Source: Apium graveolens
Taxonomy: Eukaryota > Streptophyta > Magnoliopsida > Apiales > Apiaceae
Assembly (NCBI RefSeq): GCF_009905375.1
Contig: NC_133648.1
Location: 90,708,631 to 90,772,630, forward strand
DNA length: 64,000 nucleotides
Direction of reading: 5' to 3'
The notes beneath the pieces are model-generated. The model did no database searches, was not told the origin of the DNA, and worked only from the letters and a program-made list of their open reading frames with translations. Position 1 is the first letter of the stretch, and the number at the start of each line of letters is the position of its first letter. Shown here in pieces: positions 2,382 to 59,270 of this stretch. The translations under genes and the position numbers were made by a program.

Positions 2382-3236
2382 GGCAAGAACTCAGCTAATG
2401 TTTTGCAGCAGATTAATTTCTAATAAATCAACCCAGTTTGATTTAATTGGAAATTAACTGAAATATGAATTATAAATATTTCAGAATCTCTGTATATTTA
2501 TTTTTCTTTAAAAAACTCAAATATTAACTTAGAATATTTCAAATTCTTAGTAAACTGCTTAGTTGTTAATTTACATCTTAAATGTGTAAAAATTAGCACA
2601 AGGCAGAAAAACAGTACTCAAATGTATAGAGAACTGAGTTCTCGATAAGTCAAAATGACTTATCGACAAGTTATTTTGGAGTTCTCGAGTGAGGCCTCGA
2701 TAAGTCAATTTATAGACTTCTCGAATGACTTCTCGATAAGCTCTATTATGACTTATCGATAAGACCATGTAGAGTTCTCTAATAATGTTAATTCATAGAG
2801 TTCTCGACAAGGATATTTTGAGACTTATTAATAACTCAAAGCTAAAATAATTTAATTCAGTGAATTATTTTAGACAAATACTTTTGGAAAATTTATTCTG
2901 ATTTCAATTTGATTCAATTCAAATAAATTAGAATTATTTCAGTCCTTTTTGGACAAACTGGGCATTTATTAGAGTTCTCGATAAGTCACTTGACTTCTCG
3001 AATGTACCTTTTTCATATTTAAAATTACTTCTCGATAAGTTTAATATCAAAAGTTTGTTTAACTTCTCGATAGGTATTTTACTTTTTCTATAAATACCAA
3101 GACTTCTCGATACACACACTGGACTTACACCTTCTCGAGATCTCAAGTGACCTAGCTTTCAGACAAAAGGCGATTTCTCTCTCATTTTTGCTCTTTTCTC
3201 AAAACTTTTTCTTACCCACTACTTCTAAACACTACA
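2382..3236 (+). promoter_or_regulatory. Element A pol-accessory gap with LTR-type motif array and TATA box
   Basis: Noncoding. From about 2630 to 3130 the motif TTCTCGATAAGTC and its complement GACTTATCGA recur a dozen or so times with variation. The same motif type fills the element's LTR (8460-8680) and the LTR of element D. A clean TATAAATA lies at 3089-3096, about 140 bp before the ATG of the accessory gene. In the LTR the array likewise sits upstream of a TATAAATA at 8888. I infer an internal promoter for the accessory gene; transcription is not shown. Confidence 0.6.
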
Positions 3237-6200
3237 ATGGCACAAAACATTGTTAGAGCTATCATTCCAGAGAAGGGAACTAATTTTATTGCTTTTCTTG
3301 ATGCTAACCAAGCCCCTGATAGTTTCAAGGGGTTTGTGAAGTTTCTTTCTGAATCCTACATTGTCGGTGCTTTAACTGCAAGTCATGTGCTATATTTGAA
3401 TGTTCTTCATGAATTTTGGACATCAGTTATAACTAGGACAGTTGTTCTAGAGCATATCACTTCTATGGTGGTCACATGCACAATTGGAGGCTAGGAAATT
3501 GAGTTTTCAGCTGCTGATGTGAATACAGCCCTGGGATTGCCAACTGAGAATTATGGAGAGATGCCAACTGCAGATTAGCTGAGTGAATTCATGGACTTTA
3601 TCAACTACAGTGGCTCAATCAACTTGGCAAGCCTGAACAGAACAAACCTTAGGAAGGATTGGTCCTTTGTGTTTGATTCTGTAGTGAGGGCTTTCACTTG
3701 CAGAAAAACTGGCTTTGACAACATCTCAAGTGTGGTACAGAAGCTGGTGTTCTCAGTAGCTCACAACAAGCATCTGAATGTTGGAGGTCTAATTCTGGAG
3801 GAGCTGGCTACCAGGCTTACTATGCCTTTGAAGAATAGAGGTAAAGAAATCTTTTTGCCATGGTTTATTATGTCTACTTTAGCTCATAAAGTCAATGACA
3901 TACATTTGTTAGCTGGTATTGATTGTAGTAGAATTGGCAATTGCAAGTAAGTGTCCAAAATCATATTTGGCTCACTTACTTCAAAGAAAAAGGTGAGTGT
4001 GAGTCTCAGAATCACTCCATTTATGTTGGAGAGATTCAGGACTTATCCTTACCCTATGCCAGACATGAGGGCTCTTAAATTTGCTAGTTCAGCCATGGTT
4101 CCTGAGCCTGTGGAAGCACAAACACAGGCACACCAACAGGGACCTTCCAAGGCTGCCACTTCAGTCTCTCAAAAGACTGAAGTGAGTAAAAATAAGAGAA
4201 AGGAACCAACCCTTGTTGTTGTAAATGAGAGCGAAACACTTCAAACTGAACCAGAGTCACCCTTGGTCAAGAAACCAAAGAAGAGTAAGTTACCATAATT
4301 GACCACTCTAGACACCTCTGTGTCCTCCCAAAAGGGCACAGTTGAACAAATGGGGAGTAAATAGTTACTAGATGCATCCTCTCAACAGGGTGTATCTATT
4401 GAAAAAAGCATTCACTGTAATACATCTTGTACTGAGTTAGCACAACCTGCACCTAGAATGTATGGTAGAAGAAATAAGGATAGCACACACAGTGAGGGCA
4501 CATCACTTGAAGCTCCCTCATCCATTCAGGGGGAGCTGCCAACACTCACAACTGAGCAAACTTCTCTAATCTCCCAAATTTCTTCATCATATAGAGCACT
4601 TGAATCTTATTCTCAAGTGCACCAACACTCAAGTGACATAGTTCATGAAACTGTGCTCATCACCCAGAACCAACATCTAGATGGTGAGAGGCTACTAGCT
4701 GGGGTAGACCTTGATGATATCATCACAAACATGGGGGTTTCATAAGTTTTTACTGAAGACCCCATGGTCACTCTTGCACCTTCATGTGCACAATCATCTT
4801 CACAGATGAATAGGTTTGAGGGTAGTACTCTTGAGGAAGAGCTATCTAAATCCTCTCCAATTCAATTGGAGGTTCCTCTAGAAGGAACAACTCTCCTCAA
4901 AACCTTAGCTGAAATTGCCTTCACAGTCGAAGCTAGGAGTCCAATTGCCAATGACCTTGTTATGGGAGAGGCAAGTTCATCACATTTATGTGACAGTGCT
5001 CTGTAAGGTGCACAAAGGTTTGAGGCTGGTGTACATGACAGTAACCCAGTCAAATACTCTTCAATTCCAATGGAGGTTCCTACTACATGTGGTGAACAAC
5101 AAACTGTCAAAACCACAGATCTATCTGTGAGTCAAAATGTGACTTCAGTCACAGGTGGTACTGTGAATATTTCTCAACAGCCATCCACATCTCAACCCAA
5201 CCAACCACATGTCATGGCACAATGGCTAAAAGATATGGAAGCTCAGCCTTCTACAGTTGATGACATGTTGGTAGATCAAATCTCAGGCTTGGCCAATCTT
5301 TCTCAGCAATTGCTCACTTCAGACATGGGGAACCAGGACTATCAAGCTATATTGCTATACTTCAATGAAGAGGTTGAACAACAGAAGGAGAAGATAGTAG
5401 ATGAGGCTGAAGAGGATGGAAATGTAGATGCCTGGTTGTCTGGTGACCATGTGGCAGAAATGGATGAAGTTTTGGCTAGATTCAGGAGAGAATACATAAC
5501 TATCTTGGGCAGCAATGCTAAAACTCTCACTCCTCCTGAAGTCTATGATGCCATTATGGATGTGCATAAAGCTCAACTCAAGGCTTTCCATCTCTTTGGA
5601 AAGGCCCTTGAAGTAAAATTGACTAGTCATGAAGATAAAGTCAGGAGGTTGATCAAGGAACAGATGGATGACATTGTGCCTTCTCAAAAAGACATCAAAA
5701 AACAATTCCAGTCTTTCACTGAGCAAATGTCAAGGATGGATCTGGCCTCCATAGAGAAGGAAATGTCAAAAATGAGGAGCTCTTTCAAGGCCCTGTTTGA
5801 TCAAGTTCAAGCTCGTATGACAAATTCAAGTGATACTAGGGTCAAGCTAAATCAAATACATACTGCTAGGTATGAGCCTTCATTTCTTCTCATGGAGGGT
5901 GTCAGAAAAGCTGTTGATGAACACCTTGGGTCCTTCTCAGCCAAAACCTCTACTCCTCAGATACAAGAACTTCAAGATCAAGTTTCCTCACTTCAAGCTT
6001 CCAACTCAGTTTTATCTTCCCAAGTCAGAGCTCTAACTGCACTGGTTGAGAGTCAACTGCATGATATTCAGGCCCTAGTGGAGTCCCATAAGCATTTATA
6101 AATGCATAATACAGTTGCTTTGGGAGCCATTATGGGAAAACTCAACATACCACTGCCAGCATTGCCTGAAGCTGTAAGACCTGAGATTCCTACTCCCCTA

Positions 6201-8002
6201 CTCATGCCTGTCACCAAGACTAAGGGGGAGATAGATGCAAGGCTAGCACAATCAACACTAGCACAATCAACACTCAAAAGTCAAGAACAAGGTCTAGAAC
6301 AGGAGAGGTTCCTTATGGCTGCTTAAGGTCCAGGAATGGCACAAGAGTTTGACAACTTGCTCACTGGGTTAAGGAACTCTCTCAACAACAATTTCTTCAC
6401 TTACAGAAAGACCTTGGAAAAGACTATCAATTATATCAGGTTGCTGCAAATCCCAGTCAAGGACCAGTTTTTGGAGAAAAGGATAGTGATCAATCTTAAT
6501 GATTCCGGTGTAGACAGATGTATGCAAGTCAACTTCAATTATCTGATTTCTAGAAGAGCATATGAAATAGACATTCTGATTAACAAAGTCAGAATAATCA
6601 ACAATGAAGAGAAAATGCTACTAGCAGAGTTGAAGAAGGCTCAAGAAGCTGCATTCCCAGAAGCTTATCTACATCCAAGCAAAGGGGTGCACTATATCTG
6701 CTCTACAACCAAGCAACTGAAACATTTCCAAGTACCTAAAAACTGTATCATGGCCAACAGAAGACTGATAATGGTGCTTGAGTCTGGGCTGAAAAGTAAG
6801 AAATTGAAGACTAGTGAATATGAAGCTATGATCAAGATTCTGAGGAGATACATTGATAACTCTGAAGCCAATTTTCCTAAAACTAAAATCAACACAGATG
6901 ACTTGGGTGATGATGAGCAGAAGAAAGATGGTCAAAATCCTTCTGGCTCAAACTCAAGTCAATCTAGTAAGGTAATTGGTGGCAAAAGTGATAGTGAGAA
7001 AGAGAAGGAGAAGAAAAGTGGATCTGAGACTCAAAAGAGGGATGGAAGGAGGCAAAGACAAAAGAATGATACCTCACAATCTCTCAAAACCCTAAATATC
7101 CAAATACCAACTGCTAAACCTTCACACTCAATCTCATCAAAAACTGTTCAACCTCAAACCTCTAAGCCTAAATATTTCTATAAGCTCACAGCAAACTCTC
7201 TCCACAAAACACAAATCACTCACAGCCATACTTCTCTAAAAAGACTCAAAACTATACCTTCATTCAAGCCACCCCATAAAACACACTTCAAAACAGTTGG
7301 AATAGGTCCAAACGAAGCCAAGGTCAAGAGAAGAATCAGAAGACAAAGAAGATAACTGACAACTGAATTTCTCAATGATCATGGATTTGGTGAAAAGGCC
7401 ATCTGGAACATATATAATCAAGATGATTTCAAACCTCTAAATGTTGTTGATTCAGATGAAGACTACTTTCAATACTAGCTGAAAGAATTGTCAGAATTTG
7501 GGTTGTTAACATTAGAGAAGTCAGAATCTACTACAGTGATGGGTCCTTTGAAAAGCTTGGAGATAGACTAAAGGATTCTCTCTCAATTGTTGAACTGAAA
7601 AGGGTGATAAGCTTGATGAATGGTAAAGATTCAGCCACTAAGGCATGGAGAATAGTATTGGCAGTGTTTGTGGTTAACAGAGAGGAGATGAGAGATAAGC
7701 ATAAAGAGTTGCTAGCTGAAAGGAGGAGAAAGTATGAGCATGACATTGATGAGTATATCAGAAGATCAGAAGAGTTGAAGGCAGCAGGCAAGAGAAGAAT
7801 ATCAAAGGATGGAAGATTTCTGAATATAAAAGCTGGCTCTTTGTCAAGTTATAGGATAGGGATGTTAGCTAGATATCCTAAGCCAGATTTTCTGAAACTA
7901 ATAGAGGCTCTAACTGACACCCCCATCCTAGAAAAATTGGAAATACTTGTGCAAATTAAGAACATAATTGAGAAAGAATCAGACAGCTCGGTCTTTACTT
8001 AA
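3237..8002 (+). pseudogene. Element A accessory gene, broken by ten stops and a frameshift
   Basis: Starts at the ATG in ACAATGGCACA, as in elements B and C (ACAATGGCACC, CACATGGCACC). One frame runs 3237-7355 (1373 codons) interrupted only by stops, at 3492, 3576, 3948, 4296, 4362, 4743, 5004, 6099, 6324 and 7353. The last part (about 7480-8002) is in another frame. The N-terminal ~230 residues match the B and C accessory proteins (RKDWSFVFD, an FW pair upstream). The middle is Ser/Thr/Gln/acidic-rich, then coiled-coil-like (about 5550-6090). The C-terminal part has ELKKAQEAAF, VHYICSTTKQLKH and DGSFEKLG, all recognisable in element D. No signal peptide or membrane segment is seen, so 'envelope' is not supported. 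Function unknown. Confidence 0.8.
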
Positions 8003-8143: not shown

Positions 8144-9284
8144 TATTGTGTAAGACATGCCTGTATCATAACAAGACTAAGTCATACTGACAACCCTAAG
8201 ATTAGTTGTATTGTAACCTTAATCTGTAATTCATACTTGTAACACTTAATGTCTGTAAAATGTAAATGGAGCAGACTGGAGCATTTTTCTCTAAATAGTG
8301 TCAAGCCTAAGAATTCTATCTGGAAGAAGATCAAGAAGATCATGCCTCAGAAGAATTATAAAGAAGCTTGGAGTTGAATAAATCTGTTTGGTGTAAAACA
8401 TTTTAAGTCAAGATCTCTACAAGTCACAAAATTAGTGTTATAGAGAAACCATTCGAGATCTCAGAGATATCGACAAATATACATTCATTAGAGAACTCTG
8501 AGTTATCGATAAGCCAAAGTCCATTAGGGAACTCTGAGTTATCGATAAACCAAAATTCACTAGAGAACTCAGAGTTGTCGATAAGTCAAGTTAACAATGA
8601 AGTTTCAGAGATATCGACAAGCCAACATGCCTATCGAGATGTCGAGTTCTCTATAACTTAATTGGAGATCTCGAAGTGAAGAAATTTCTCTAAGTACAGA
8701 ATTGCAGAATAGTTCAATATCCAAGGTTGCAAATCAACAAACAATTCATACAGCTGGATTGACAAGTCTACAAAAAGCAGCTTGAGAGATGTGCAAGATC
8801 AATGAAAAAGATTAACTGACAGAGGAGATTAAAGTAATCACGGGATGCTAAAGATATGCTAAGCCAGAAATGGAAGATTTTCTTTTCTATAAATAGAAAT
8901 GACAAGTGACAGTTTAGAAAAGCTAATAGCATGTTTATTATCCATTGTGTAAACCAGCAGTTAACTGAGTTATGAAGTTAACACTAGTCCTCTAGTCAAG
9001 TAGAACAATCAGAATAGAAAATTGTGTGTTCTCTCTCAAGAAAGAAGCTAAGTTCTAAAACAAGAACTTAGAGATTTTGTAGCAAAACACTGCTTGATTT
9101 TTAATATAAAATTAAGTGAGTTTTGAGGATCTTTGTTTTACATATTTGCCCAGCTATTTATGTTTAACATTCATTCTACTAAATCATTAACAACTACCAA
9201 CTGCTAAAGCCTAAGTCGATCGAAAATCAAACATTTAAGCCAAAACACATTCACCCCCCCTCTGTGTTGTATTCATACCTAACA
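8144..9284 (+). repeat. Element A 3' LTR
   Basis: 1141 bp, ending CCTAACA. The first bases read TATTGTG where element D has TGTTGTG, so the 5'-TG is probably mutated. It contains three tandem 36-bp units with GAGTTATCGATAAG (about 8487-8594) inside a wider motif cluster (8460-8680). A TATAAATA lies at 8888-8895, the likely U3 promoter. The opening (AAGACATGCCTGTA) matches element D, which defines the two as one family. No second LTR is in the window. Confidence 0.88.
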
Positions 9285-10960: not shown

Positions 10961-12018
10961 TGTTAGGAATATATGTGCATTAGTTTGATGATATGTTTAA
11001 CAAAACACTTAAGTAGAAATCTAGTGTTTGTAGCCTCAACGGATAAGACCATTTTGGCTATCCGTTGATGGTGTAGCTTTACTTAGAAATAAGTCTAGTG
11101 TTGTAGCACATTTCAGTCTCTGAATTTGAGATATAACTCTTAAATGTTGAGGGAAATTATAAGTCATGTTGACTACTAGAGGATATGCAGATAGGAAGGC
11201 CAATTGTAAATATTTCATGCCTTGTAATTTTGTATAAATGAAATGGTGTCAACGGATAACTTAAAGACCTTCAACGGATGAGAAACAAAGCTTCAACAGA
11301 TGTCTCTAAAGCTTCAACGGATAACATCCTTCAACGGATGAGTGCATCAACGGATAGAGCTTCAACTGCTAACACATCAACGGATAAAGCCATCAACGGA
11401 TGAAGGCTTCAACGGATGTTCTGTTAAATAGCAGTTGACAAGTGGTAGTTGTACCTACAAACAGAGGCACATGGGTTGACAGAGACAACTGAGATGTGGT
11501 AGCCTAATTCAGGAACATCAGAAAAAGCAGCCGTTCTACTCTAGTATAAAGAGGCAATAGTCAACAATGCACTGGAGTAAAATGGAGAAGAAACAAGTGG
11601 AGAACTTATTTTATTATTGTACTTTTTATCTTTGTCTTCACTTGTAAACTTGGTGATATATAAACCAAGTAGCAGCTAGTAATTAGATAAGAATTTTTCC
11701 AGAGCTGTTTAGAAAAATCTTGAGAGAAAAATTATCTAGTTTGTACTAGGACGCAGCTGTGATTAACTTCTTGAATCACAGATTTTCTGAAATACCATCT
11801 CTGGTGGAACAACAATCCACCAGAAAAGTTTTTAAGGTCTGTTGTGTTCTTTACATTAGTGTTTGAATATATATCTGTCTGTATTAGCTTAAAGCAATTC
11901 ATACACTTGTTTATCTTAAACACATAGCCTTTGAAACTGCTCAAAACTTGAAAAAGTTTTGAGATTTACATTCAACCCCCCTTCTGTAAATCTCATTGTT
12001 AGTTTATTAGGAATAACA
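10961..12018 (+). repeat. Element B 5' LTR
   Basis: Begins TGTTAGGAAT, ends AATAACA. About ten exact copies of TCAACGGAT/ATCCGTTGA lie at 11036-11416, one more is degenerate (CAACAGATG) but intact in the 3' LTR. A TATAAA lies at 11545-11550, about 130 bp after the motif cluster, the likely promoter. Confidence 0.95.
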
Positions 12019-12020
12019 AT

Positions 12021-12079: not shown

Positions 12080-14494
12080 ATGAGTAAGAAGGATATTGGA
12101 GTAAAAATCCCAGTTCTTGACAAAGACAGTTATCACCATTGGAAGGTGAAAATGCACCTTCATCTACTCTCCCAAGATGAAGGTTATATAAACTGCATTG
12201 AGAATGGTCCTCACATTCCCCACAAAGTAGCCACAGTTGCTACGGCGACAATTGCTGTTGGTCAATCCATTCCAAAACCTAGAGCAGAATGGACAATGGA
12301 AGACACAGAAGAAGTCCACAAGGATAAGAAGGCTATGAACATTTTGTTTAATGGTCTTGACAAGGATATGTTTGATAATGTGATAAATTGCACAACTGCC
12401 AAAGAGGTTTGGGACACAGTTCAGCTACTGTGTGAAGGTACAGAACAAGTAAAAGAAAACAAAATGCAGCTTCTCATTCAACAGTATGAGTATTTTCATT
12501 TTGAAGAAAATGAATCTTTAAATGACACATTCAATAGATTCCAAAAGCTGTTGAATGGACTGAAGCTGTATGGTAGAGTGTACCAGGTGAAGGATTCAAA
12601 TCTTAAATTTTTAAGATCCTTGCCAAAGGAATGGAAACCCATGACTGTCTCCTTGAGAAACTCTCAAGATTATAAGGACTTCACTCTTGAAAGATTATAT
12701 GGAATCTTGAAGACTTATGAACTAGAGCTGGAACAGGATGAGGTATTGGAGAAGGGAAGAAAGAAAGGAGGTTCAGTTGCCTTGGTAGCTGAAAATGAGA
12801 AAGAATGCAAACAAGAAACTGTGAGATCTACATCAAACTCCAAAGATGGCACAAGCAAATCAGAATCAAGCAAGGGTAAGGAGCAAGTTGCTGAGAATGA
12901 AGACAACTCCAGCCAAGATGACTCTAATGGTATTGATGAGCATCTTGCATTTCTGTCCAGGAAATTTGCAAAGATGAAATTTAGGAAAAACACTAGAGCC
13001 ACTAAACCTCATAAGAACATGGTGGACAAATCCAAGTTCAAGTGTTACAATTGTGGTACAAGTGGACACTTTGCAAGTGAGTGCAGAAAGCCAACTTCTG
13101 AAAAGAAGAAATTTGACCAAGTAGATTACAAAAAGAAATATTTTGATCTGCTCAAGCAAAAGGAGAGGGCTTTCATTACTCAAGAAAAAGACTGGGCAGC
13201 TGATGGAGAAGAAGAGGATGAAGATGTGGAATATGTCAACTTGGCTCTCATGGCTGATTCTGAGGAAAATGAAGTTAGTTCATCAAGCAACCAGGTAATC
13301 ACTACTGATTTAACACAGCTTACTAAAGAAGAGTGCAATGATGCTTTTAATGACATGTCTACTGAACTGTATCATTTGCGTGTGTCTCTTAAATCTCTTG
13401 CTAAAGAAAATAGTAGGATTAAAGAGAACAATTTGTTTTTAAGTGATAGAAATGCTGTGTTAGAAGATAAGTTGATTGACCTAGAGAAAACTAAGCTACA
13501 TTGTATATCTGTTGAAAATGAACTAGCTGAATCTGTTAAGAAAGTAGAAATACTTTCTAATCAATTAGAGAGAGAGCAAGAGGTGATTAAAGCCTGGAAG
13601 ACATCTAGGGATGTTAGTGCTCAAATTGCCAAGGTCCAAGGAATTGAATCATTCTGTGAGACTGCCTGGGATAAAAACAAAAAGAAACTGGAATTAATTG
13701 ATGGGCTGTCAACGGATGTGGAATCAACGGATGATGAAAATTATCCGTTGAAGGAAGAAAAGGAGCATCCGTTGAAGGTTCCTCAATTAAAACAGGCAGA
13801 TGTTTCTAAAAGTGAAAATCTAAAGAAACTCAACAAAAAGTTTGGTTCAACTTCCAAGAACTTTGTCAAAGGAGAAGCAAGCACATCCAAAGATGTCAGT
13901 AAGGTGAATATAGGGCACATGACCTTAGAACAGTTAAAGAATAGGCTCAAAGTGGTTGAGGATAAAAAGGAAACTAAAAGAAAATCTAATAGAAATGGGA
14001 AGGTAGGGATTAACAAACATAACAATTACACACCTGATAAGTATGCTCCTAGAAAAAGCTGTGTGCATTGTAGTAGTGTTAATCATCTATCTGCTAATTG
14101 CAAATCTATTAAGAAAACTCCCATTCCTGTACCCTCTTCCATGCCTAATATGTCTGCATCACCTCTGCATGCTATGCCTGTTATGTCTCAACAGAATCCT
14201 TATGCACATTTTGCAAACATGCCATATTTTAACAATCCTTATCTTGCTGCATTTGGTATGCCTCAAATGCCATACAATATGTCTATGTGGAATAACATGC
14301 TTGCACAATCCATGCCTTATCAAATTCCAAATGTGCTAAATGATTCTGTGACTAACCCTACACCTCAACCAACTACATCTAAGATCAAGGCTGACTCAAA
14401 GTTACCTAAGTCTAAAGATGCAGGAGGAATGAAGTCTAGGAGAAAGGCTAATAAGAATGGACCCAAGGAAACTTGGGTACCAAAATCAACTTGA
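12080..14494 (+). CDS. gag: Element B gag polyprotein (804 aa)
   Basis: Forms the virus-like particle and packages element RNA. The ATG follows the PBS by about 50 bp. Residues about 10-220 form the Copia gag core (YHHWKVKMHLHLL; KEVWDTVQLLCEGTE). A CCHC zinc knuckle, CYNCGTSGHFASEC, starts near residue 322; a second CCHC-like motif, CVHCSSVNHLSANC, near residue 661. Residues about 430-520 look coiled-coil, and the C-terminal part is Met/Pro/Asn-rich. Four copies of the family motif lie in frame at 13709-13776, read as STD, STD, YPL and HPL in an acidic linker. The reading frame is intact. pol lies in a different frame just downstream. Confidence 0.93.
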   Translation: MSKKDIGVKIPVLDKDSYHHWKVKMHLHLLSQDEGYINCIENGPHIPHKVATVATATIAVGQSIPKPRAEWTMEDTEEVHKDKKAMNILFNGLDKDMFDNVINCTTAKEVWDTVQLLCEGTEQVKENKMQLLIQQYEYFHFEENESLNDTFNRFQKLLNGLKLYGRVYQVKDSNLKFLRSLPKEWKPMTVSLRNSQDYKDFTLERLYGILKTYELELEQDEVLEKGRKKGGSVALVAENEKECKQETVRSTSNSKDGTSKSESSKGKEQVAENEDNSSQDDSNGIDEHLAFLSRKFAKMKFRKNTRATKPHKNMVDKSKFKCYNCGTSGHFASECRKPTSEKKKFDQVDYKKKYFDLLKQKERAFITQEKDWAADGEEEDEDVEYVNLALMADSEENEVSSSSNQVITTDLTQLTKEECNDAFNDMSTELYHLRVSLKSLAKENSRIKENNLFLSDRNAVLEDKLIDLEKTKLHCISVENELAESVKKVEILSNQLEREQEVIKAWKTSRDVSAQIAKVQGIESFCETAWDKNKKKLELIDGLSTDVESTDDENYPLKEEKEHPLKVPQLKQADVSKSENLKKLNKKFGSTSKNFVKGEASTSKDVSKVNIGHMTLEQLKNRLKVVEDKKETKRKSNRNGKVGINKHNNYTPDKYAPRKSCVHCSSVNHLSANCKSIKKTPIPVPSSMPNMSASPLHAMPVMSQQNPYAHFANMPYFNNPYLAAFGMPQMPYNMSMWNNMLAQSMPYQIPNVLNDSVTNPTPQPTTSKIKADSKLPKSKDAGGMKSRRKANKNGPKETWVPKST

Positions 14495-14507: not shown

Positions 14508-16710
14508 GTGCAGGGAAAAAGAAGAAATCTATGGTACTTGGACAGTGGCTGTTCAAGACACATGACAGGAGATTTCTCCCTGCTCACAGAGTTTAAGGAG
14601 AGAGCTGGCCCTAGCATAACCTTTGGAGATGACAGCAAAGGGTTTACTATGGGATATGGCTTGATTTCAACAAGGAATATCATAATTGATGAAGTTGCAT
14701 TAGTTGATGGTCTCAAGCACAACTTACTGAGCATCAGTCAACTATGTGATAGAGGGAATATAATTTCCTTCAATTCAGAAGCCTGTGTTGTCACCAGTAA
14801 GAAAGACAACAAAGTGGTTCTAACTAGAGTTAGAAAAGGAAATGTGTACTTAGCTGACTTCAACTCTACAGATGCAGAATCTATTACTTGTCTCTTCAGC
14901 AAAGCAAGTTCAGTTGAAAGTTGGCTATGACACAAGAAGCTATCCCATTTGAATTTCAAGACAATGAATGATCTAGTCAAAAAGGACTTAGTTAGAGGAA
15001 TTCCTCTTGTTGAATTCTCAAGGGATGGTTTGTGTGATGCTTGTCAGAAAGGCAAACAAAGGAAATCATCATTCAAAAAGAAGCTTGAAACAACAATTGA
15101 TGAACCATTACAGCTGATACATATGGATTTGTTTGGACCAGTCAATGTATTGTCAATTGCAAGAAAAATATATTGCTTTGTGATTGTAGATGATTTCTCA
15201 AAGTTTTCATGGGTCTATTTTCTTGGATCAAAGGATGAAGCAAGTGAAATCATTATCAATCACATCAGGCAAGTCAATAATCATCCTGACTTGAAGGTTA
15301 GGAATATCAGGAGTGACAATGGAACTGAGTTCAAGAATTTGACAATGAGGCTGTTCTGTGAAGAAAATGGAATCATGCATGAGTTCTCAGCTCCAAGAGC
15401 ACCTCAGCAAAATGGGGTAGTTGAAAGAAAGAACAGATCTTTAATTGAGGCTGCCAGAACAATGCTTGAAGAATCAAAGTTACCAACATATTTCTGGGCT
15501 GAAGCTGTTAATCGTGCCTGCTACACTCAGAATATTTCCTTGATCAATCAAGCTAAAGGCATGACTCCTTATCAGTTGTTCAAGAGAAGAAAACCAACTC
15601 TAAACTTTCTTCATGTCTTTGGATGTAAATGCTTTATACTGAGAAATCAATCTGACCATAAAGGGAAGTTTGATGCAAAGGCTGATGAAGGGATATTTGT
15701 TGGTTACTCAGCTGGAAAATCTTATAGGGTCTACAATCTAAGAACCAACATTGTATTGGAATCTGTGCATGTTGTGTTTGATGATAAAAAGATTGATGGA
15801 CTAACAGATGAGGGACACCATGAAAGACTCAAATTTGACAACATTGAGATATATTGTGATGATAGTGAAGAGGAGATTGATGGAAATGACACTTCAAAAG
15901 GGATTCAAGATATGCCCTTGGATAATGCACAAAATACTGCATCCGTTGAAAGTCAGAATTCTGCATCCGTTGAAAGAGGCAATGCAGTATCCGTTGAAAG
16001 ACATAGTGCATCATCCGTTGAAGTACATAATGAAGCATCCGTTGATCATAGTTCATCAACGAATAATCGATTTACATCATCAGTTGATAGAACTCCAAGT
16101 TCCCTGCAAAGGACCAACAACTCAGGGGGAGTTTCAACTGATCAACACTCTGTCTCACATCACGACAATACTGAGGCCACCTCATCTAGAGCACATCTTC
16201 CACCTCAAAGGAAATGGACCAAGAATCATCCCTTTGAACTGATCATTGGTGATGCATCATCTACAGTACAAACAAGAAGAGCTACTCAAAATGAATGTCT
16301 GTATAGTAGTTTTCTATCTCAGGAGGAACCTAAGAAAGTGGAAGAAGCCTTAATGGATCCAGATTGGATATTAGCTATGCAGGAAGAGCTGAACCAATTT
16401 GAGAGAAACAAAGTTTGGAAGCTGGTACCCAAGCCAAAGAACAAGAGTTCCATTGACACAAAATGGGTATTCAGAAACAAGATGGATGAAAATGGCATTG
16501 TCATAAAGAATAAAGCCAGATTGGTTGCTAAAGGCTATTCTCAACAAGAGGGAATAGATTTTGATGAAACATTTGCTCCAGTTGCAAGACTTGAAGCCAT
16601 CAGAATCTTTCTAGCCTATGCAGCTAATGCCAATTTCAAAGTCTATCAGATGGATGTCAAGAGTGCATTTCTAAATGGGGAATTGGAGGAAGAAGTTTAT
16701 GTAAGCCAAC
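14508..16710 (+). pseudogene. pol: Element B pol, 5' part (protease, integrase, start of RT)
   Basis: The frame opens at a TGCAGGG context 14 bases after the gag stop, with no ATG. Protease has LDSGCSRHMTG near 14540. The integrase zinc region follows (HKKLSH, CDACQK); a TGA at 14928-14930 replaces the Trp before HKKLSH. The catalytic core has HMDLFGP, SDNGTEF and NGVVERKNR. The acidic linker at 15800-16250 carries five exact copies of the family motif (15951-16050), read mostly as SVE. RT begins with [11 protein letters not shown] and runs to the YVSQ codons, where element F is inserted. Any protein sequence after 16710 in this frame is LTR of F, not pol. Confidence 0.92.
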
Positions 16711-18173
16711 TGTTAGGGCGAAATCACGCACTAATATTCACGCAAGTATACGCGTTCGCAAGTAATATAGAATACTTTCTAGTTCGTTCCCTCAGAGACT
16801 CAGACTAAGTTATTGTCTAATTTAACTCACTCACCAATGTATGATTACTTCTCAATGTTAAGATAATAACACTTAAAATTGTTGATTAAATATTAACTAT
16901 AATTAACTACTTAATTAACCACTTAACTAACACTGTAATTTATCAATAATAAAACACTCATGAGATCACAACTTCATTATTACTTCCTTCTATAGCCATA
17001 GTTATTACCTTTAGCATGTGACAGTGATGATATTAATCGAATAACACTAAACTGATAAAAGCCAACTTTCATTGTACTAATACCATTCTACCAAACATCC
17101 ACAATTAAGATAGAAATTGAATAGTCATCAATTATGTTGAGTTCCTATATGTCTACAGAAATTGACAACACAACGATTTAAGCACAAGTTATTCCTTTTG
17201 ATTACATAGGGCAAATAAAACTGTTAGAGTTACCTACTAATCATGCACAACGTACATGAACCTATGCTAGCATGGCAAGTTCTAAATCTCAAGATCCACT
17301 GTCGCTTCACAAGAGATTAACACCCTATCTTATATGTTCGCGACGCACATAAGACGAATACGCACAACCAATACTAGATATCATGCAATCATCACACACT
17401 AAAGTATTAAACAATTAACTAAAGAATTCCATAATAAATCCGTTGCAACCCCATGATCACGATTAGCCCATAATAGAACTTATCGCCATCATGGGTTCAT
17501 ATGAAATCATAATAAACGAACACAAGAAAATAACAACTAAACTAATTATATTAAAACAGAGTACGTCACAAGAGTAAATAAGTCAAAGCAAGAAAACTAG
17601 CATCCAACGTTACAACGAAACAAGAATCACAAGAATATATGCTTCCTCTTCGTTGCTGTGTGCTAAATCGGTCTTCTTCCTTATCTCCTTCGCTTCTTGC
17701 AAAACACAATCTAAAACATAATCCCCTCTTAATACTCTGTGAAAAACGTCTCAAATCTACTTATATAATAGTCCCATAAAACTCAGATTACAGAGAAGTT
17801 GGAAGCCAAACAGAAGTAGAAGTCTAAAACAATATATTATTTTCCCCGACCCTGCGCGGCCGCTCAGCATTTCTGCGCGGGCGCGCAAGGCTGCTGCACG
17901 GCCGCTCAGCATTGCTGCGCGGGTGCGCAGGACCCTACTGGAAAATTTCCAGGTTTGCTCCGTTTCTTCGCCGTAATCTGCCCGTTCTTTTCCTCTCGCA
18001 ATGGTGAACACATGCCAAGGCTTATTCTTGATGATTCCTCCTCCGAAATGCAACTAATACCCTGAAATGCATAAACACTAGAAAAACGCATCAAATACAC
18101 AAAATACTTGATTTCAAGACACCAATTTAAGCCATTTTAAGACGTTCTAAGTGGTATAAAATGCCACTTATCA
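16711..18173 (-). repeat. Element F 3' LTR (left copy)
   Basis: 1463 bp, TGTTAGG...TTATCA on the + strand. It carries a 42-bp tandem duplication of a GC-rich block (CTGCGCGGCCGCTCAGCAT and neighbours) at 17849-17931; the other LTR has one copy. The rest of the LTR is AT-rich. A TATATAA-type box lies just beyond the GC block in transcription direction. Confidence 0.95.
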
Positions 18174-18186
18174 CACCCCAAAACTT
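18174..18186 (-). other. Element F polypurine tract
   Basis: On the - strand AAGTTTTGGGGTG, directly before the 3' LTR start TGATAAGTGG. It is the expected plus-strand primer. Confidence 0.8.
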
Positions 18187-20491: not shown

Positions 20492-20946
20492 TGATTTGTG
20501 AATAAAAGTGTGTAAGAACTAATTTTTGATGTTTATGAGAGGGTTTAAGTGTAGGAAGTTGTGGGAGATATGTAGGATAGGTGTATGTATATATAGGGTG
20601 TGGAGTAGGTTAAATTAGATTAGGAGTGGGTTTGAGGTATAAAATCATGGGGTAATGGGAAAAGAATTCGTGGGTTTATGGGCTGTAATGGGTTTTTGTG
20701 TTTTTTTTTTTTTTTTTTCTGAACTGTAAAAAAAATTTCTGGAACTCGACCCCTGCGCGGCCGCTCAGCATAGCTGCGCGGGCGCGCAGAGGGTCTTCTG
20801 GATTTTTTTTTTCAGCCCCTGTTTTCTGATTTTTTTGTGTTTTTGGATAGGTTATTAACTTCTAAGAGTTCCTGTAACAACAATTCATGGGTTGCCTCCC
20901 ACGCAGCGCTTCTTTTTCGTCATTAGCTTGACGTTCCGTTCCTTTC
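20492..20946 (-). promoter_or_regulatory. pol-env gap of F with LTR GC-block and TATA box
   Basis: A GC-rich block at 20748-20795 (CTGCGCGGCCGCTCAGCAT, then GCTGCGCGGGCGCGCAG) is nearly identical to the block in the LTRs (17849-17931, 27571-27615). Its ends, CTGCGCG and CGCGCAG, are inverted and could pair. A TATATATA lies at 20588-20595, between the block and the env-like ATG at 20491. In the LTR the block is likewise upstream of a TATA box. I infer a separate promoter for the env-like gene. Confidence 0.6.
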
Positions 20947-26427: not shown

Positions 26428-26433
26428 AAAACT

Positions 26434-27854: not shown

Positions 27855-27859
27855 CCAAC

Positions 27860-35335: not shown

Positions 35336-35446
35336 AAAACGGGTCATTTCTTCCTCGATTTCAAATCCCTAATTCCAAAACTTAAATTGTGTTTAATTTT
35401 CATGTTTAATGGTTGAATTTTGTTATTGATGGTGTGTTGTAGTTGT

Positions 35447-39812: not shown

Positions 39813-39814
39813 AA

Positions 39815-41510: not shown

Positions 41511-41663
41511 ATCTCCCCCAATTTGTGAAAAGATTGCTTAACACAAATTCATGTCTGTTAACAAGACTAACCCCATGTTATAATGGAAAACAAGACTAAT
41601 ATAAAAATTGACACAATTACAGTAATGTACATTAGATGATTTTGAGTTGAGTAATTACAAGCA

Positions 41664-43473
41664 TCAGAAAAAGATTGGAACTTTTGATTCTTCTCTAATG
41701 AGGTCCTTTAAATATACAAGAATTTCAAGTTCCTCTATGATTGGAGTCCCTGTTAGAGCTTCTATCAGTTTGAGTATGTCTTGCTTTGGATAACCATCTA
41801 ACATTTCAATTCTGAATTTTGAAAATGAGCCAGCTTTTATATTCAGAAACCTTCCATCTTTTGAGATTCTGATCACCCCTTTTTCTTTGAGTTCTTCTGA
41901 TCTTTTGATGTACATTTCAATCTCTTCATCATACTTCCTCTTTTTTCTCCTCATATTCTGCTTTACTCCTTGCTCTTCTTTCCTCCCTTGCAATCAACCA
42001 TTCATCTAGAACAGATCTCTATGCTCTTGTAGCAGTATCCTTGTCCTTCAACAAACTTATCACTCTCTTGATTTCTGTTCGAGAGAGAGTGTCCATCAAA
42101 TTGCTTCCAAGGAAAGTGAAGGACCCATCTTGAAAGTAGATTCTCACTTCCTTTAGAGTAACAACCCAGACTCTAACTATTTCCTCAGCTAGCTGTTGAA
42201 AATAATCTTCATCTGAGATGCACCAATTTAAAGGTAGAAAGTCATTTTGCTTGAAACAGTTCCAGATGGCCTTTTTAGTAACTTGTACTTTTTCAGCATC
42301 CTTAGCCTTCTTGGGTTTCCTCTTAACAGTTTTGTAGTGAATTTTGAGTGAAGGCTTGTCTAAATGTAAGCTTGTGATTTTCTTGAGAGATGTTTGGTTT
42401 GAGGTGATTGGAGTTTTTAGGAAGGTGTTTGCAGTTTGTTTATGTAAAAACTTTGGCTTAGAGGTTAGAGGAGGTTTGATGATTGAGGTTGTTGGCTTTG
42501 AAGGTTGAGCTAGAGTTGTTTGGATTTTTAGGGTTTGGTGTGGTTTTGAGCCATCATGATTCTTCTTGCTTTTTCTCTTACTTCTTCTTTTCTTCTCATC
42601 ATCCTTCTTTTCTTCTTGCTTCTTATCCTTGCTACCACTTGCCTTGCAGATTTGACTTGGATTTGAGCCAGTAGGTTTTTGATTGTCATCCTTCTGCTCA
42701 TCATCATCCTTGTCATCTCTTAAATTGTATTGGGTATTTGGCAACATGATGTCAGCATTGACAAGGTATATATCCAATATCTTTATCATCTCCACATCCT
42801 CTTGCTTCTTGTTCTTTTTGTATTTTAAGTCATTCTGTATAGTCATGATCAACTTCATATTTGATCTGACACAGTGTTTGGGAACAAGAAGATGTTTGCA
42901 CTGTTTGGTTGTTGGACATATGTAGACTACTCCTTTGTGTGGATATAGATAGGCTTCTAGAAAAGCTGCTATCTGTGCCTTTTTGAGTTCTTGGAGAAGT
43001 TGAGTGTCTTCTGGAATAACTTGCTTCATTCTGTCAATCATTATGTCCAGTTCAGATGCTCTTAGAGTTGGAATATTTGGGAGAGACACCTGAAGACACC
43101 TGTCCACACCACCATCATTTATGTTCACAACAATTCTCTTTACCAGGAAGTCATCAATTTTTACTACCACTGCCCTGATGAAGTTGATGTTCTTGCCCAA
43201 AGCTTTCTTGTAGGTTAAGTAGTTATTTTTTACGGGACATTCTTAGTACTGTAAGAAGTTCACTGAATTCTTGGTCTTGATTAGGTCCTTCTGCAGCCTT
43301 TAGAAGTCTTTCCTTTCCAACATCCACTTGACCATCCTGAATAGGCTCTTTAGATTTGGCTTTAGCATCCCTGGATTGTTGAATCCTAGCCTCAATATTC
43401 CCTTTAGTGTTGGTGACAGGCATGATTAGGGGTGATGGGATTTCTAGCATAATTTGTTCTGGTAGAGAGGGCA
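41664..43473 (-). pseudogene. Element D accessory gene, C-terminal part
   Basis: Homologous to the end of the element A accessory gene. Shared segments include ELKKAQ.AAF, VVYICPTTKQCKH, DEDYFQ, VRIYFQDGSF, the helix KRVISLL and, at the end, RISKDGRFLNIKAGS. The frame is broken near 43225 (shift in an A-run), at 42019 (TAG where the copy should continue) and near 41990 (shift). The segment between the YIC domain and the DG segment is Lys/Thr/Ser-rich and poorly conserved. It is useful mainly because it shows which parts of the A protein are conserved. Confidence 0.8.
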
Positions 43474-45008: not shown

Positions 45009-48000
45009 CTAGAGCCAATCACCCATATATCTAATACCCATGGAACTAGTATGACCTTCGTGCTTGTGCTGTGACCAAGCCTTAGTCAGTGGGTCTGCAA
45101 CATTATCATCAGTATGCACTTTACATATATGTATACCTCCTATTTCATTAATCTCTCGAAGAAGGTGATATCTCCTAAGTATATGTTTTTCCCGGGAATG
45201 GGACCTTGGTTCTTTAGCCTGTGCAATGGCTTCATTATTATCACAGTAAAGATCAACTGGATCTGTGATTGATGGAACCACACCAAGTCCTGTTATGAAT
45301 TTTTGTATCCAAACAGCCTCATTGGCTGCTTCACTGACAGCAATATACTCAGCTTCCATTGTAGAATCAGCTACTGTCTCTTGCTTTGAACTCTTCCAGC
45401 TTACAGCACCTCCATTAAGGCAAAACACAAAACCTGACTGAGATACTGAATTGTCTCTGTCTATCTGGAAGCTTGCATCAGTGTAACCCTTTACAACCAG
45501 CTTCTCATCTCCCACATACACCAAGAATGAATCTTTAGTCCTCTTCAAGGGCTTAAGAATATTCTTGACAGCTGTCCAGTGACCCTCACCAGGATTAGAC
45601 TGGTATCTGTTCGTCATGCTCAAGGCATACGAAACATCAGGACGAGTACATATCATTGCATACATTATAGATCCAATTGCCAAAGCATATGAAACTTTGC
45701 TCATACGACCCTTATCATCTAATGATTTAGGGCGGTTGTCTTTTGAGATCAATATCCCATGAGACATTGGGACATATCCTCTTTTTTCCTCTTGCATCCC
45801 AAAACGATGCAATACTTTGTCAATGTATGTACTCTGACTTAGGCCGATTAATTTCCTTGATCTATCTCTATAGATCTTGATCCCTAATATATAGGTAGCA
45901 TCACCTAAGTCCTTCATGAACAAACTATTTTCCAACCAAGTCTTAACAGTTTGTAGAGAAGGTATGTCATTCCCTATTAGTAATATGTCATCTATATATA
46001 GTACTAGGAATGCCACATGGCTCCCGCTAACTTTCTTATAAACACATGGTTCATCTTCGTTTTGAATAAAGCCAAATTTTTTGACTATTTCATCAAAATG
46101 TCGATTCCATCTCCCTGAGGCTTTCTTTAATCTATAAATAGATCGAAGCAACTTACAGACCATCTTAGCAAACTTGGGATCGACGAAACCCTCAGGTTGT
46201 ATCATGTATACATCCTCTTTAAGGCTCCCATTTAAGAAAGTGGTTTTGACATCCAATTGCCAAATCTCATAGTCGTAGTAAGCAGCTATTGCTAGCAAAA
46301 TCCTGATGGACTTGACCATAGCAACTGGTGAAAAAGTCTCATTATAGTCTATACCATGAACTTGTTTGAAACCTTTTGCCACTAGTCGTGCTTTATAGGT
46401 CTGTACTTTACCATCCATGTTAGTTTTCTTCTTGAAAACCCACTTGCACCCTATAGGTTTTACCCCTTCAGGTGGCTCAACTAAAGTCCATACTTTATTT
46501 TGATACATGGATTCCATTTCAGATTTCATGGCCTCTCGCCATCTCTCAGAGTCTGGACTGTTCATAGCATCTTGGTAGATAAGAGGCTCATCATTGTCTA
46601 TAAGTATTACGTCATCATCTTGAGTCAAGAGAAATCCATAATATCTCTCTGGCTCATGACGAGTCCTATTAGATCTATGAACAACCTGTGTTTCCGGAGC
46701 AAGAATATCTTGATATTCTTCCTGCCCATTTTCCAACTCTGGTTCAATATTATTTTGTATAACTCGATCTTTATCGAGATCTATAGTCCTCCCACTAATT
46801 TTCTTGGAAAGTAACTCTCTTTTAACAAATACAGCGGTTCGAGCAACAAACACTTTGTTCTCGGTAGGATTATAGAAACTATACCCTTTAGTTTCTTTAG
46901 GATATCCCATAAAATAACATTTATCCGATTTTGGTCCCAGCTTGTCAGAAACCAAGCATTTCATAAACGCTTCGCATCCCCATACTTTCATAAAAGACAT
47001 GCTGTGACGTTTCTCAGTCCATATCTCATATGGAGTCTTTTGAACCGATTTAGTTGGAACTCGATTTAGTGTATATGCAACCGTTTCTAGAGCATAACCC
47101 CAGGAACTTATTGGAAGATCTGCTAGACTCATCATTGATCGCACCATGTCCAACAAGGTACGATTTCTCCTCTCAGAAACTCCATTCCATTGATGCATTC
47201 CAGGAGGAGTAAGCTGTGATACGATACCACACTCCTTTAAGAAAACTTTAAACTCGAGGCTTAAGTATTCTCCTCCACGATCTGATTGTAGAACTTTTAT
47301 ACTTTCCCTTGTTTGCTTTTCCACTTCAGCCTTGTATTCTTTGAACTTTTCAAAAGAATCGGATTTGTTCTTCAAAAGATACACATATCCATATCTACTG
47401 AAATCATCAGTAAATGTAATGAAGTAGTAAAAGCCACCTCTTGCCATCGTACGTATTGGACTACATACATCATTATGTATAAGTCCTAATCGTTCGGTGG
47501 CCCTTTCACCTTGTCCGGTAAGAGGAGCTTTAGCCATTTTGCCAATGAGACAAGATTTGCATTCTTCGTATGATTCAAAATCAAACTTATCCAAGTAACC
47601 ATCTTGATGTAATTTGGAAATGTGTTTCTCATTTATGAGACCTAAACGACAATGCCAAAGGTATGTTTGATTTGAGTCTTTCATCTTAATACGTTTATCA
47701 TCATTATTTATGTTATAGACATGAGTATCTAAATCAAGAACATATAAACCATTAAACAAACGTGCAACCCCATAGGTAACATTATTGAATGAAAAGAAAC
47801 AACTATTGTTCTGAATCAAAAAATGAAAAGCCTTTCTTGTCCAAACAAGAAACCGAAATAATGTTTCTGCAAATCGTAGGCACGTAAAAACAGTTATCTA
47901 GTTCTAAAACAAGCCCAATGGGCAATGATAAACGATAAGTCCCTACTGCTAAAGAAACAACCTTTGCTCCATTGCCAACTCGTAGGTTGACTTCTCCCTT

Positions 48001-49419: not shown

Positions 49420-49421
49420 TA

Positions 49422-50655: not shown

Positions 50656-50764
50656 AATTTTGGAAGACCAGTCTAGTACAGAAATCTTAATTTCGGGACT
50701 AAAGATCATATCTTAACCAGCCTCTGCCATCACTGCATCAAATGCAGTTTCAACGGATAATCCA
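50656..50764. other. Left flank of element C
   Basis: Contains GAAGACCAGTCTAGTACAG and following bases to about 50735, repeated with a few changes at 63914-63985, right of element C. It ends TTTCAACGGATAATCCA; ATCCA (50760-50764) is the left target duplication of C. Confidence 0.75.
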
Positions 50765-51363
50765 TGTTAGATATATTTGATAATGTCATGGCTAATATGT
50801 TTTATGTTTAGATTTCAGATCTTATTTGAATAGAACAAATCAGTACTTAACTGATCAGTACTTATACTGGAAGTCAGAACTTAAGGGATATCAGTACTTA
50901 TGTCATCAGGAGATAGATATCAGAACTTAAGTGCTGAAGGACGATCAGATAAGGACAGTAGCTGATTAAAGTTAAGAAGATCAAGATAAACATAAGAAGA
51001 GATATGCATGAAGAAGGAATTCCGTGAAGAATGGAATACTTGGAATAGAAGATATCTGATTGATATATTTTAGGAAGCAGAATTATATTCCATATCAATT
51101 AGCGAATATCTTGTAACTGTGTAGTATATAAACACAGAAATAGAGTTTACACTATAAGTGTTATCATTATCGAGAATATTATTAAATATAACTCTAGTAG
51201 CTCTCGTGATATTTTGTTCATCACTGAGAGATAACAGTTCCAGATTGTAACAGAGTTTATTGTTTAAATAAAGTTTGTTTTCTGTTACACAAGTTCTTGA
51301 AATTTGATTTGATTGTAATAAACACTGTATTCACCCCCTCTACAGTGAAAGTGTGACCTAACA
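50765..51363 (+). repeat. Element C 5' LTR
   Basis: TGTTAGATAT...GACCTAACA, 599 bp. Between 50830 and 50935 lie four variants of the motif TATCAG(A/T)ACTTA. A TATATAAA at 51125-51132 is the likely promoter. Confidence 0.96.
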
Positions 51364-51365
51364 AG

Positions 51366-51377: not shown

Positions 51378-51418
51378 TATCTGTTAACACACATACAGTT
51401 AAAGATCCAAACACAATC

Positions 51419-53752: not shown

Positions 53753-53772
53753 TGGTCTTTTTGATTGCAGGG
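53750..53772 (+). promoter_or_regulatory. gag-pol junction of element C
   Basis: gag and pol share one frame here but are separated by two stops, TAG at 53750 and TGA at 53762, then TTGCAGGGC. Element B has TGTGCAGGG at the same place but pol in another frame. The pyrimidine-rich stretch ending in CAG resembles a 3' splice site. The expression mechanism is unknown. Confidence 0.45.
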
Positions 53773-56899: not shown

Positions 56900-58314
56900 A
56901 CTTGTTCTATGTTATCAGACTTTATGATCAGTATTTACAGAATTAATCTCTTTGTATATTCTGTGCATTAATTGATAAATGTCTTTAAGTACTGACTGTT
57001 GTCTGATATATGTTTCTAAACTCTGATAAGTGATATGTCTGTTTCAGTAACTATTCTATCCTATGAGGATAACTGTGCTAGATACTGACCTATTAGTCTT
57101 CAATAAACAAATGATCCCATGAAAGAAGTAATTATTTCTGTGGAAATCTTATGACACAAGCAAATTCTGATAACTGAGCTTAGTTAAGTTTACTTTGTAT
57201 ATCTTATTACTAAGTCACAAATTAGAATAATGCTACTCATCTGTTTAAGTTCTGATTCTAGTAAAACTGCTGAATGTACTAAGTGCTGATAAACCTCACT
57301 TATCAAAAGAAGAAGAACAATAATCAAAGAATAATATCAGGTACTCCTTTGAGATCTAGAGTAAAAATGTGAAAGGGACGACCCAAGTGCATTGCTGGTA
57401 TTAAGTAAATATGCATTAGAAAAGCAAAATATTTTCTTGGTGACTTTTCACACTCTATGATTACTGGAGAAATACTCTGATAATAGCATAAATTCTGATA
57501 AACAGTCGTGACTCACTTACACTGAGAAGCCACTGTAAAATAGAATTTCAAAAGATGCATAAAATTAGCACAACAAACAGTTGAGGTGGACTCATGCATG
57601 AACTCATTTATCAGTAGGTTTCAGGATAGTGACAGCTCTTTAGCAAAATTTTAATTATGACTTATTTCTAAGATGTACTGAAGTAAATCAGACTTTACTC
57701 TTTGTCTGTTATTTAGCTTAATGCACACACACATCACTCCATATGAATGATGAAATTTCTGTGGTGGTCTCTGTTATTTTAGATAAACAGTCATTGTGTC
57801 ACTTCTGCACAAAATTCTGAGGACAAGTTCTAGTTACACGTTCTGATGATTAAGTTCTGACATTCATAACTAAGAACTTGTATGAGTATTTACTCAGATA
57901 GATATTCCTTGTTCAAGTTAAGACATTATGTTCTGATGACTGTTAAGTTCTGGTATAGGTCTAAGTTCTGATTTTTCAGTCTAACCCTTTACTTGACTTA
58001 TCTGTGCATAAAATTTGGTAACAGTCTCAGATTAATTTCGAAATGTTGAAGTGGAAGATTAATAGTCTATGGTTAAAACATAATGGCACTCGTTCTTGAA
58101 CAGTTCACTCTTGTTACATGTGCACATTCCTTTTCCAATGACTGTTATTCTTTTTCAAAGTCTAGGGAGACGAGGTAGAATTACTTCTATCTGTCCGCAT
58201 TAAATATCTTTGCGTCTCTTGGCATTCTCTTGCCTTTATATGCAACCACTTCACATCAGTCTTTCCATCACATTCTTCTCACACACTTATCCTCCTTCTT
58301 CTGTCAAAAACACA
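56900..58314 (+). other. Element C pol-accessory gap, first part, rich in the family motif
   Basis: Noncoding. AGTTCTGAT or close variants occur many times (near 57022, 57247, 57284, 57493, 57850, 57867, 57930, 57968). A TTTATATGC box at 58236-58244 lies about 75 bp before the small ORF at 58315. Confidence 0.6.
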
Positions 58315-58590
58315 ATGGTTCGATTCAACATGTTTTTGAACTCACAAACCTTCACAATGGAGCTCAGTTGTGCTGAGTGGCAGCAGGAGTGGCATATAAC
58401 AGCCATTCCTGAGGAGATCTGGGACTCTGTCCCACAGGAGGTGCTGGCTCACCTTCTATTCTTCGAGATGGATTATCATCGCCATCTGGAGCGTCTGGAG
58501 GAGGAACGGCGGGAAGCTATCCGTCAGCAAGAGCGAATCATACGACTCGCCATCTTGTTCGTCGAAGATAGGAAGAGGAAGATGACTTAA
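58315..58590 (+). CDS. Small ORF between pol and accessory gene (91 aa), unknown
   Basis: Starts at the ATG in ACACAATGGTTCG, the same style of start as the accessory genes. The protein begins MVRFNMFLNS, has a Trp-containing middle (AEWQQEWHITAIPEEIWD) and ends in a charged helix (EMDYHRHLERLEEERREA...) with a basic tail. I recognise no family. GC content and codon choice (CGG, CGC, CTG, GAG) look richer than in gag, pol and the accessory gene, so it may have been captured from elsewhere. A TATA-like box lies about 75 bp upstream. Elements A and B have no evident counterpart. It could also be noncoding by function. Confidence 0.5.
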   Translation: MVRFNMFLNSQTFTMELSCAEWQQEWHITAIPEEIWDSVPQEVLAHLLFFEMDYHRHLERLEEERREAIRQQERIIRLAILFVEDRKRKMT

Positions 58591-59270
58591 TCTCGTCTTC
58601 TTCCTGTTCTTCTTCATCCTCAGTTTTGTCACGCTTCTTAGCTAGGACTAAAGCTGTTGATGTTAGGATTAGAAGCTTAGGGAAAATCTTGTATTGATGT
58701 AATTTCAATTTCATATATGTATTGACTTGATATATTAATGAAAACTGTTTTTACTTCAAGATTTTGTCTCTGAGTTATTTTATCTTGTGTTGATAAATCC
58801 TGATTGATATTCTGATGACCATTTAAATTTTGTTTTTATTTAAGTTCTGATTCTCCGTCAGCACTTATTCATAGAAATTATCTCGGTCATTTTTAACATG
58901 ATTCATTTTCAGAATATTAATGTTGCAGTGAAAAACAATCCAATCAGTGATAACGGGTTAAAATTTGAATTGTTTCCCTTGACAAAAGGAACAGTTTTTT
59001 TTTCCTTGAAACTCGGCAAATGGGTAAGTCATGATTACTGTTTTCTCGAGCCCAGTAACTATCCGTTATTACTGCATGTCTGACAGGTGTCCAACGGTAA
59101 CATTTTTTTTGTATAAGTACAGCAGAGAGAAGATTTCTTTAATCTTTTTAATTTCTTCATCTTCTATCTCTCTTCTTACTTTTACTCTTCTTCACTTTAC
59201 TATTTCCGTTGTTTTCATACAGATATTATATCAAACACCTATCAGGCATACTTAACTCTAACTTTTTCAC
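58591..59270 (+). promoter_or_regulatory. Element C gap, second part, with TATA box before the accessory gene
   Basis: AT-rich 3' trailer of the small ORF, then further motif copies (near 58797, 58816, 58843). A TATAAGTA at 59112-59119 lies about 155 bp before the accessory ATG, followed by a pyrimidine-rich leader. I infer an internal promoter. Confidence 0.55.

Follow-up and report, generated by a model that had tools for sequence, protein, structure and literature searches.

Predicted internal promoters sharing LTR motifs precede the post-pol genes of Sirevirus-like and Athila-like retrotransposons in Apium graveolens

The role of the 'envelope-like' genes located downstream of pol in plant long terminal repeat (LTR) retrotransposons is described in the MASiVEdb paper as yet to be demonstrated (PMC3414828), and in PMC12844716 it is left to future work whether Tork and Athila elements have open reading frames (ORFs) of this type and whether methylation is modulated by them. 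In nine Sireviruses bearing repeated motifs (RMs), the LTR motifs also cluster before the envelope-like (ENV) gene, which was taken as support for an earlier hypothesis of an internal promoter, the ENV promoter itself being, by that paper's account, not conclusively identified (Bousios 2010, PMC2829016). An ENV ORF promoter, along with defined start sites, has been reported for Athila6A of Arabidopsis (Panda 2016, PMC4977677), and gene23, a post-pol accessory gene of the maize element Grande, is reported to have its own promoter (Gomez-Orte 2013, cited in PMC7264820). The VANC system of the VANDAL transposons relies on short motifs in tandem repeats that co-evolve with the element-encoded protein (Hosaka 2017, PMC5735166), and PMC12859917 mentions an unpublished talk about the structure of VANC and coevolution with its targets. 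The idea of an internal promoter carrying an LTR motif is thus already known in kind for both the Sirevirus and Athila lineages. Here, a window of 64,000 nucleotides of the Apium graveolens genome (NC_133648.1, positions 90,708,631 to 90,772,630 of the forward strand; all coordinates below are positions within this stretch) was analysed, in which four retrotransposons, designated A, B, C and F, each harbor a gap between pol and the post-pol gene. The motif shared between LTR and gap, the place and conservation of a TATA box, the depletion of ATGs before the start codon and a joint one-base difference in the motif between B and its sister family E were computed.

Elements A, B and C are located on the forward strand and are Sirevirus-like members of Ty1/copia, with pol pieces matching RVT_2, while F, on the reverse strand, is an Athila-like Ty3/gypsy element with matches to RVT_1, RNase H and Retrotrans_gag. 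This agrees with a first-pass annotation of the stretch, which had assigned the four elements to two superfamilies. Only part of pol and the 3′ LTR of A fall within the window. A copia-type gag with a zinc knuckle was read in B and C, while A, B and C all have a polypurine tract (GGGGGAGATT) at the 3′ LTR, the end of which reads as polyC-rich. The Athila features of F are a gypsy pol followed by a PF20167 gene. The two LTRs of B (10961-12019 and 34278-35336) share 99.4% identity, those of C (~50765-51364 and 63186-63785) 99.8%, and those of F (3′ LTR 16708-18174 and 5′ LTR 26430-27855) 98.7% and 98.6% in two pieces. F is nested within the pol of B, with a target-site duplication CCAAC.

The first-pass annotation had claimed that each gap repeats the motif of its own family's LTR, and this was borne out for all four elements. 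Gap cover by LTR 9-mers was compared with 300 dinucleotide shuffles per comparison, and the words of the own LTR exceeded 300/300 shuffles in 4/4 gaps, while none of twelve comparisons with the LTRs of other families beat all 300. The gap of A also beat 300/300 shuffles when compared with D, a relative of A. The outcome was the same with 10-mers, while with 8-mers F's own value was matched by 6/300 shuffles. The A gap (2295-3236) holds ten exact copies of TCGAYAAG (sites 2642-3039; 10.6 per kb), compared to three in one LTR (2.6 per kb), namely at positions 360, 432 and 468 of the 3′ LTR (8147-9283); the pieces of A coding sequence within the window have none. Six exact copies of CAACGGAT are present in the B gap (28919-29557; sites 29090-29242; 9.4 per kb) and 10-11 in one LTR (9.4-10.4 per kb), including the array of the 5′ LTR, with 0-1.9 per kb in coding pieces. 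In C, both the gap (56900-59270) and one LTR hold five exact copies of TCAGWACTTA, those of the 3′ LTR at LTR positions 75-155. Allowing one mismatch, there are 6.9 per kb in the gap before a small ORF and 11.7 per kb in the LTR, and the gap portion after the small ORF, at 3.1 per kb, is not above C coding sequence (2.9-3.8 per kb). In F, the shared feature is one 43-bp GC block, with 95% identity between gap (20492-20949, reverse strand; block at 20748-20795) and LTR (27570-27612 in the 5′ LTR). The order of array and then TATA box is present inside the LTRs of all four elements (TATA at LTR position 742 in A and 360 in C, and after the GC block in F), but in A and B a further TATA match precedes the array or lies next to it. 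The motifs differ completely between A, B, C and F, but in those Athila families that were compared, the GC boxes show no family specificity.

The association of the motif with LTR and gap, as originally described, holds in that own-LTR words are enriched in the gaps, but B also carries arrays within its gag (13710-13774; four copies), pol (15941-16044; five copies with a 24-nt period) and post-pol (31212-31324; five copies) coding sequences, and in the 9-mer test the cover of one B coding window (0.301) is greater than that of the B gap (0.281). No arrays like these are found in the coding pieces of A or the coding sequence of F. The motif orientation furthermore differs between gap and LTR: in C, all five gap copies are inverted (56986, 57246, 57851, 57962 and 58841) and all five LTR copies forward, while in B three forward and three reverse copies in the gap compare with ten and one in the LTR. 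The gap is therefore not a straight duplicate of the LTR. The pol array of B encodes an 8-residue repeat (..ASVE..), the DNA motif thus being accommodated within the pol reading frame.

All 41 counted C..CGGAT octamers of B, across both LTRs, gag-pol, gap and post-pol, are CAACGGAT, whereas the sister family E mostly carries the one-base variant CGACGGAT in its LTR, gap and coding arrays. The variant accounts for 28/28 sites in the E gaps (six loci) and for ten of the 14 sites in the LTRs of two loci, the remaining four being CAACGGAT. The post-pol stretches read in six E loci contain 23 copies of CGACGGAT, two of CAACGGAT and seven other C..CGGAT octamers. These post-pol copies occupy the same places as in B (+1654, +1669, +1693, +1717 and +1759), except for a shift of 3 nt in locus L079 and one further place in L078, in genes with 70% overall DNA identity between the two families. 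In the one locus where the E pol array was read, two sites are exact copies of CGACGGAT and the others degenerate, with no CAACGGAT. Family G carries CAACGGAT in gap and LTR, like B, and H resembles E, except that the gap of locus L090 holds one CAACGGAT alongside two CGACGGAT. CGG is found in the B and E sites, which occur in both orientations in the gap, while the A and C motifs lack the palindromic CGG-CCG core. The occurrence of the B motif in three coding arrays and of its one-base variant in the LTR, gap and coding sequence of E are new here, and no joint motif difference across LTR, gap and coding arrays was found in print in the open-licence PMC literature. This joint difference points to a sequence-specific reader of the motif.

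Downstream of the motif, a TATA box is located at -148 from the ATG in A (TATAAATA, 3089-3096), -117 in B (TATATAAG, 29441-29448) and -104 in F (TATATATA, 20588-20595, reverse strand), within the 95-155 bp first proposed, and slightly outside this interval, at -159, in C (TATAAGTA, 59112-59119). The leader between TATA box and start codon is nearly free of ATGs in the four window elements, and entirely so in A, and has a pyrimidine fraction of 0.61-0.73 compared to 0.48-0.56 upstream. As 34 to 58 of 500 shuffled gaps contain one TATA in such an interval by chance, a single box is weak evidence by itself and other family copies were therefore examined in the 3.33 Gb genome, where the TATA position proved to be kept in most Athila, A and E loci. 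A search with an 85-amino acid N-terminal piece of the A post-pol protein gave 13768 first-look candidates, of which 150 were scored and 20 read. Among these 20 loci, TATA is located at exactly -148 in 18, the window copy included, each gap holds 7 to 11 motif copies, and ATGs before the start number 1, 38, 25, 65 and 33 per 148-nt bin, nearest first. The TATA box lies at -113 to -125 in 6/6 E loci, at -117 in H locus L088 and at -107 in two G loci, while TATAAG is retained in L092, the single other copy of C that was compared.

Conservation across families is observed in the Athila elements, where 150 of 15,833 candidates from a PF20167 genome search were scored and 30 cut-out loci, together with F, represent four families. 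TATAWA occurs at -135 to -75 in 27/31 loci (missing in L015, L026, L028 and L031), compared to 7.9% of shuffles, and falls in the same aligned column in 26. In a family-weighted alignment of the four families, conservation in the non-coding gap is highest in the two decamers covering the TATA box (0.78 and 0.86), with other decamers between -300 and -1 ranging from 0.26 to 0.76 and the start-codon decamer at 0.91. ATGs again become scarce towards the start, with 4, 13, 25, 26, 48 and 59 per 100-nt bin, nearest first (31 loci). Both the gap and a place ~2.5-2.9 kb beyond the start hold GC islands in 7/9 loci tested, these being nine of the ten Athila loci with downstream DNA (L032, piece L039, was left out). 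The downstream place corresponds to the LTR in F, and presumably does so in the other loci.

The position and conservation of the TATA box, the ATG-poor and pyrimidine-rich leader and the published precedent in both lineages make an internal promoter the best reading, and the gaps probably act as promoters of the post-pol genes. Each gap would act as an additional RNA polymerase II promoter inside the element, made up of motif array, TATA box, ATG-poor leader and start codon, and the accessory gene could accordingly be made from its own mRNA. We infer from the sequence that transcription would start within the gap and that a protein would read the motif. The array sites in LTR and gap, and in the coding sequences of B and E, may be bound by a single sequence-specific factor, with a target that differs from family to family, and common factor sites would link accessory gene and LTR promoter. 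The first-pass proposal of internal promoters that copy LTR regulation is thus supported as regards the promoters, but copying appears to be only part of the story: the presence of the motif and its one-base change in coding arrays, together with the differing orientation, fit a sequence-specific reader better than a duplicated promoter, and 'copy of LTR regulation' would be more aptly described as common sites for a putative family-specific reader.

This reader is perhaps the product of the accessory gene itself. We tentatively suggest that the products of the 'envelope-like' genes in Sireviruses, and perhaps also in Athila, are VANC-like DNA-binding proteins which would recognise the arrays of their own family, counter silencing or activate the LTR, control their own promoter and co-evolve with the motif. 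An element would then switch target through the same base change at dispersed sites. Arrays of short, family-specific motifs along the element, a VANC-type trait, are seen in A, B, C and E, and not in the Athila families. No VANC-like interpretation of the post-pol genes of Sireviruses was found in print in the same open-licence literature.

Several observations weigh against the promoter and reader interpretation. The B/G and E/H motifs may result from a single evolutionary switch, so that the many sites perhaps record only one event, apart from the motifs of A and C, which are unrelated, and the presence of the B motif in coding sequence could mean a role other than promoter function. Lone TATA-like sites are common in AT-rich DNA, a TATA match is absent in 4/31 Athila loci, 2/20 A loci and H locus L090, and the copies within each of families A and C differ too little for selection to show. 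In the Athila alignment, 16/31 loci have an AG at one column, a possible splice acceptor, and the downstream GC island was not found in 2/9 loci tested. The Athila GC boxes are furthermore not family-specific, with the self match ranking 7, 7, 1, 6, 5, 2 and 1 of 7. Family-specific co-turnover of the motif within Athila was tested and not found.

It is possible that a host transcription factor recognises the motif in both LTR and gap and that the post-pol protein is uninvolved. Plant MYB sites typically hold AACGG cores, and a host factor for AACGG would presumably be MYB-like. The Sirevirus RM boxes have been noted to resemble stress-related plant sites (Bousios 2010, PMC2829016), in keeping with such a factor, but the arrays in three B coding regions are not readily explained by it, and neither are the entirely different motifs of A, B and C within one host. 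Less plausibly, the post-pol protein derives from a spliced transcript initiated in the LTR, the gap then comprising the end of an intron and a leader. Spliced env-like mRNAs have been reported for barley Bagy2 (PMC7264820), splice acceptors were predicted for BAGY2 and Athila (PMC2829016), and acceptor-like sequences can be seen by eye ~50 nt before the ATG of C (...TTTTCATACAG) and in A (...GCTTTCAG). However, the best AG column falls short of the TATA column, which is shared by 26 of the same 31 Athila loci, making splicing less likely, and splicing accounts for neither the TATA conservation nor the motif arrays. That the shared motif is a functionless by-product of tandem duplication, template switching or gene conversion is improbable, for although the arrays are repetitive and B has further ones in coding sequence, one with a regular period, the orientations of LTR and gap preclude a straight copy, the B and E post-pol sites are co-located (+1654 to +1759) with one base differing amid diverged sequence, and such arrays are absent from the coding pieces of A in the window and from the coding sequence of F. 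A SIRE1-like readthrough of the pol stop was set aside, as hundreds of bases separate pol and the post-pol start.

The post-pol gene of A (3237-8002) is interrupted by several stop codons in the window copy, that of B (29558-34147) has an in-frame stop which closes the first ORF at 32656, and that of C (59271-62978) is an open reading frame. The F gene (19319-20491, reverse strand) encodes a PF20167 (Transposase_32) protein (e-value: 3.4e-37), the structure model of which was unusable (pLDDT: 35). The B protein has 36 related proteins, the named ones derived from Apium, Heracleum and Daucus, and the C protein shares 25% identity with it over the first 255 positions (e-value: 9e-29). The best PDB match of the post-pol N-terminal model is the VANC21-DNA anti-silencing protein, although this match is weak and comes from a low-confidence model (Foldseek probability: 0.92; e-value: 0.068). 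PDB sequence searches with the B domain returned nothing meaningful, and the families reported at E<=10 for 14 relatives of the post-pol proteins did not include DUF1985, in a search in which the HMMER filters drop most weak matches. PF20167 weakly matches three of nine proteins, P0001, P0002 and P0022, at the same place (e-values: 0.018, 0.013 and 0.062), and four of the 14 relatives in a second test, but not B and C themselves. An hhalign profile comparison between the Sirevirus and Athila post-pol N-termini showed no similarity, with a probability below 1%.

The 2.4-kb gap of C additionally harbors the small ORF of 91 amino acids (58315-58590, forward strand), with a TATA-like site ~80 nt upstream and a pyrimidine-rich leader. 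Eighteen homologous proteins were found, 16 of them on contigs of 523-1222 nt which could be candidate transcripts, and in copy L092 the ORF has an early stop. The insertion site of element C is a B-type CAACGGATAA array (50660-50764 and 63786-63900), and ATCCA flanks the element on both sides. Element D (40117-43242, reverse strand) is a relative of the 3′ end of A, its LTR holding eleven TCGAYAAG copies (ten forward, one reverse), many 36 bp apart, and an RVT_2 pol located nearby (45012-47897, reverse strand) may be part of another element. Outside the window, locus L084 has a B-like Sirevirus gap in which an F-LTR-like stretch interrupts the expected place of the array, with TATA box and leader kept.

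Should the post-pol products prove to be DNA-binding factors that recognise their own elements and have promoters of their own, the function of 'envelope-like' genes would become directly testable in vitro, there would be a cause for the turnover that LTR motifs undergo in plant retrotransposons, and DNA transposons and LTR elements would share the same solution. Foamy viruses, with unrelated hosts and elements, use an internal promoter for an accessory gene, and their Tas protein controls both the LTR and the internal promoter. Among plant elements, the Sirevirus RM boxes are similarly found as an LTR motif in the linker before ENV, with the LTR TATA after the cluster, but all except one (Tnd-1) have a CGG-CCG core, unlike the A and C motifs; relative to what is described in the available portions of that paper, the joint change in coding arrays and the Athila case are added here (PMC2829016). 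Athila6A likewise has an internal promoter preceding its ENV ORF, to which the link to LTR GC boxes and the TATA conservation across families are additions as far as the available text extends (PMC4977677). The additional ORF of a sunflower Athila has the same Transposase_32 domain as the F gene, and the promoter and LTR motif go beyond the accessible account of it (PMC11728184). Maize gene23 has its own promoter, as proposed here, but is antisense to gag-pol (PMC7264820). The VANC system is alike in its family-specific arrays across the element and in one-base variants between subfamilies, but, as described in PMC5735166, it belongs to DNA transposons, involves a DUF1985 protein and has its repeats in introns and non-coding sequence, while the arrays described here belong to LTR elements and extend into coding sequence.

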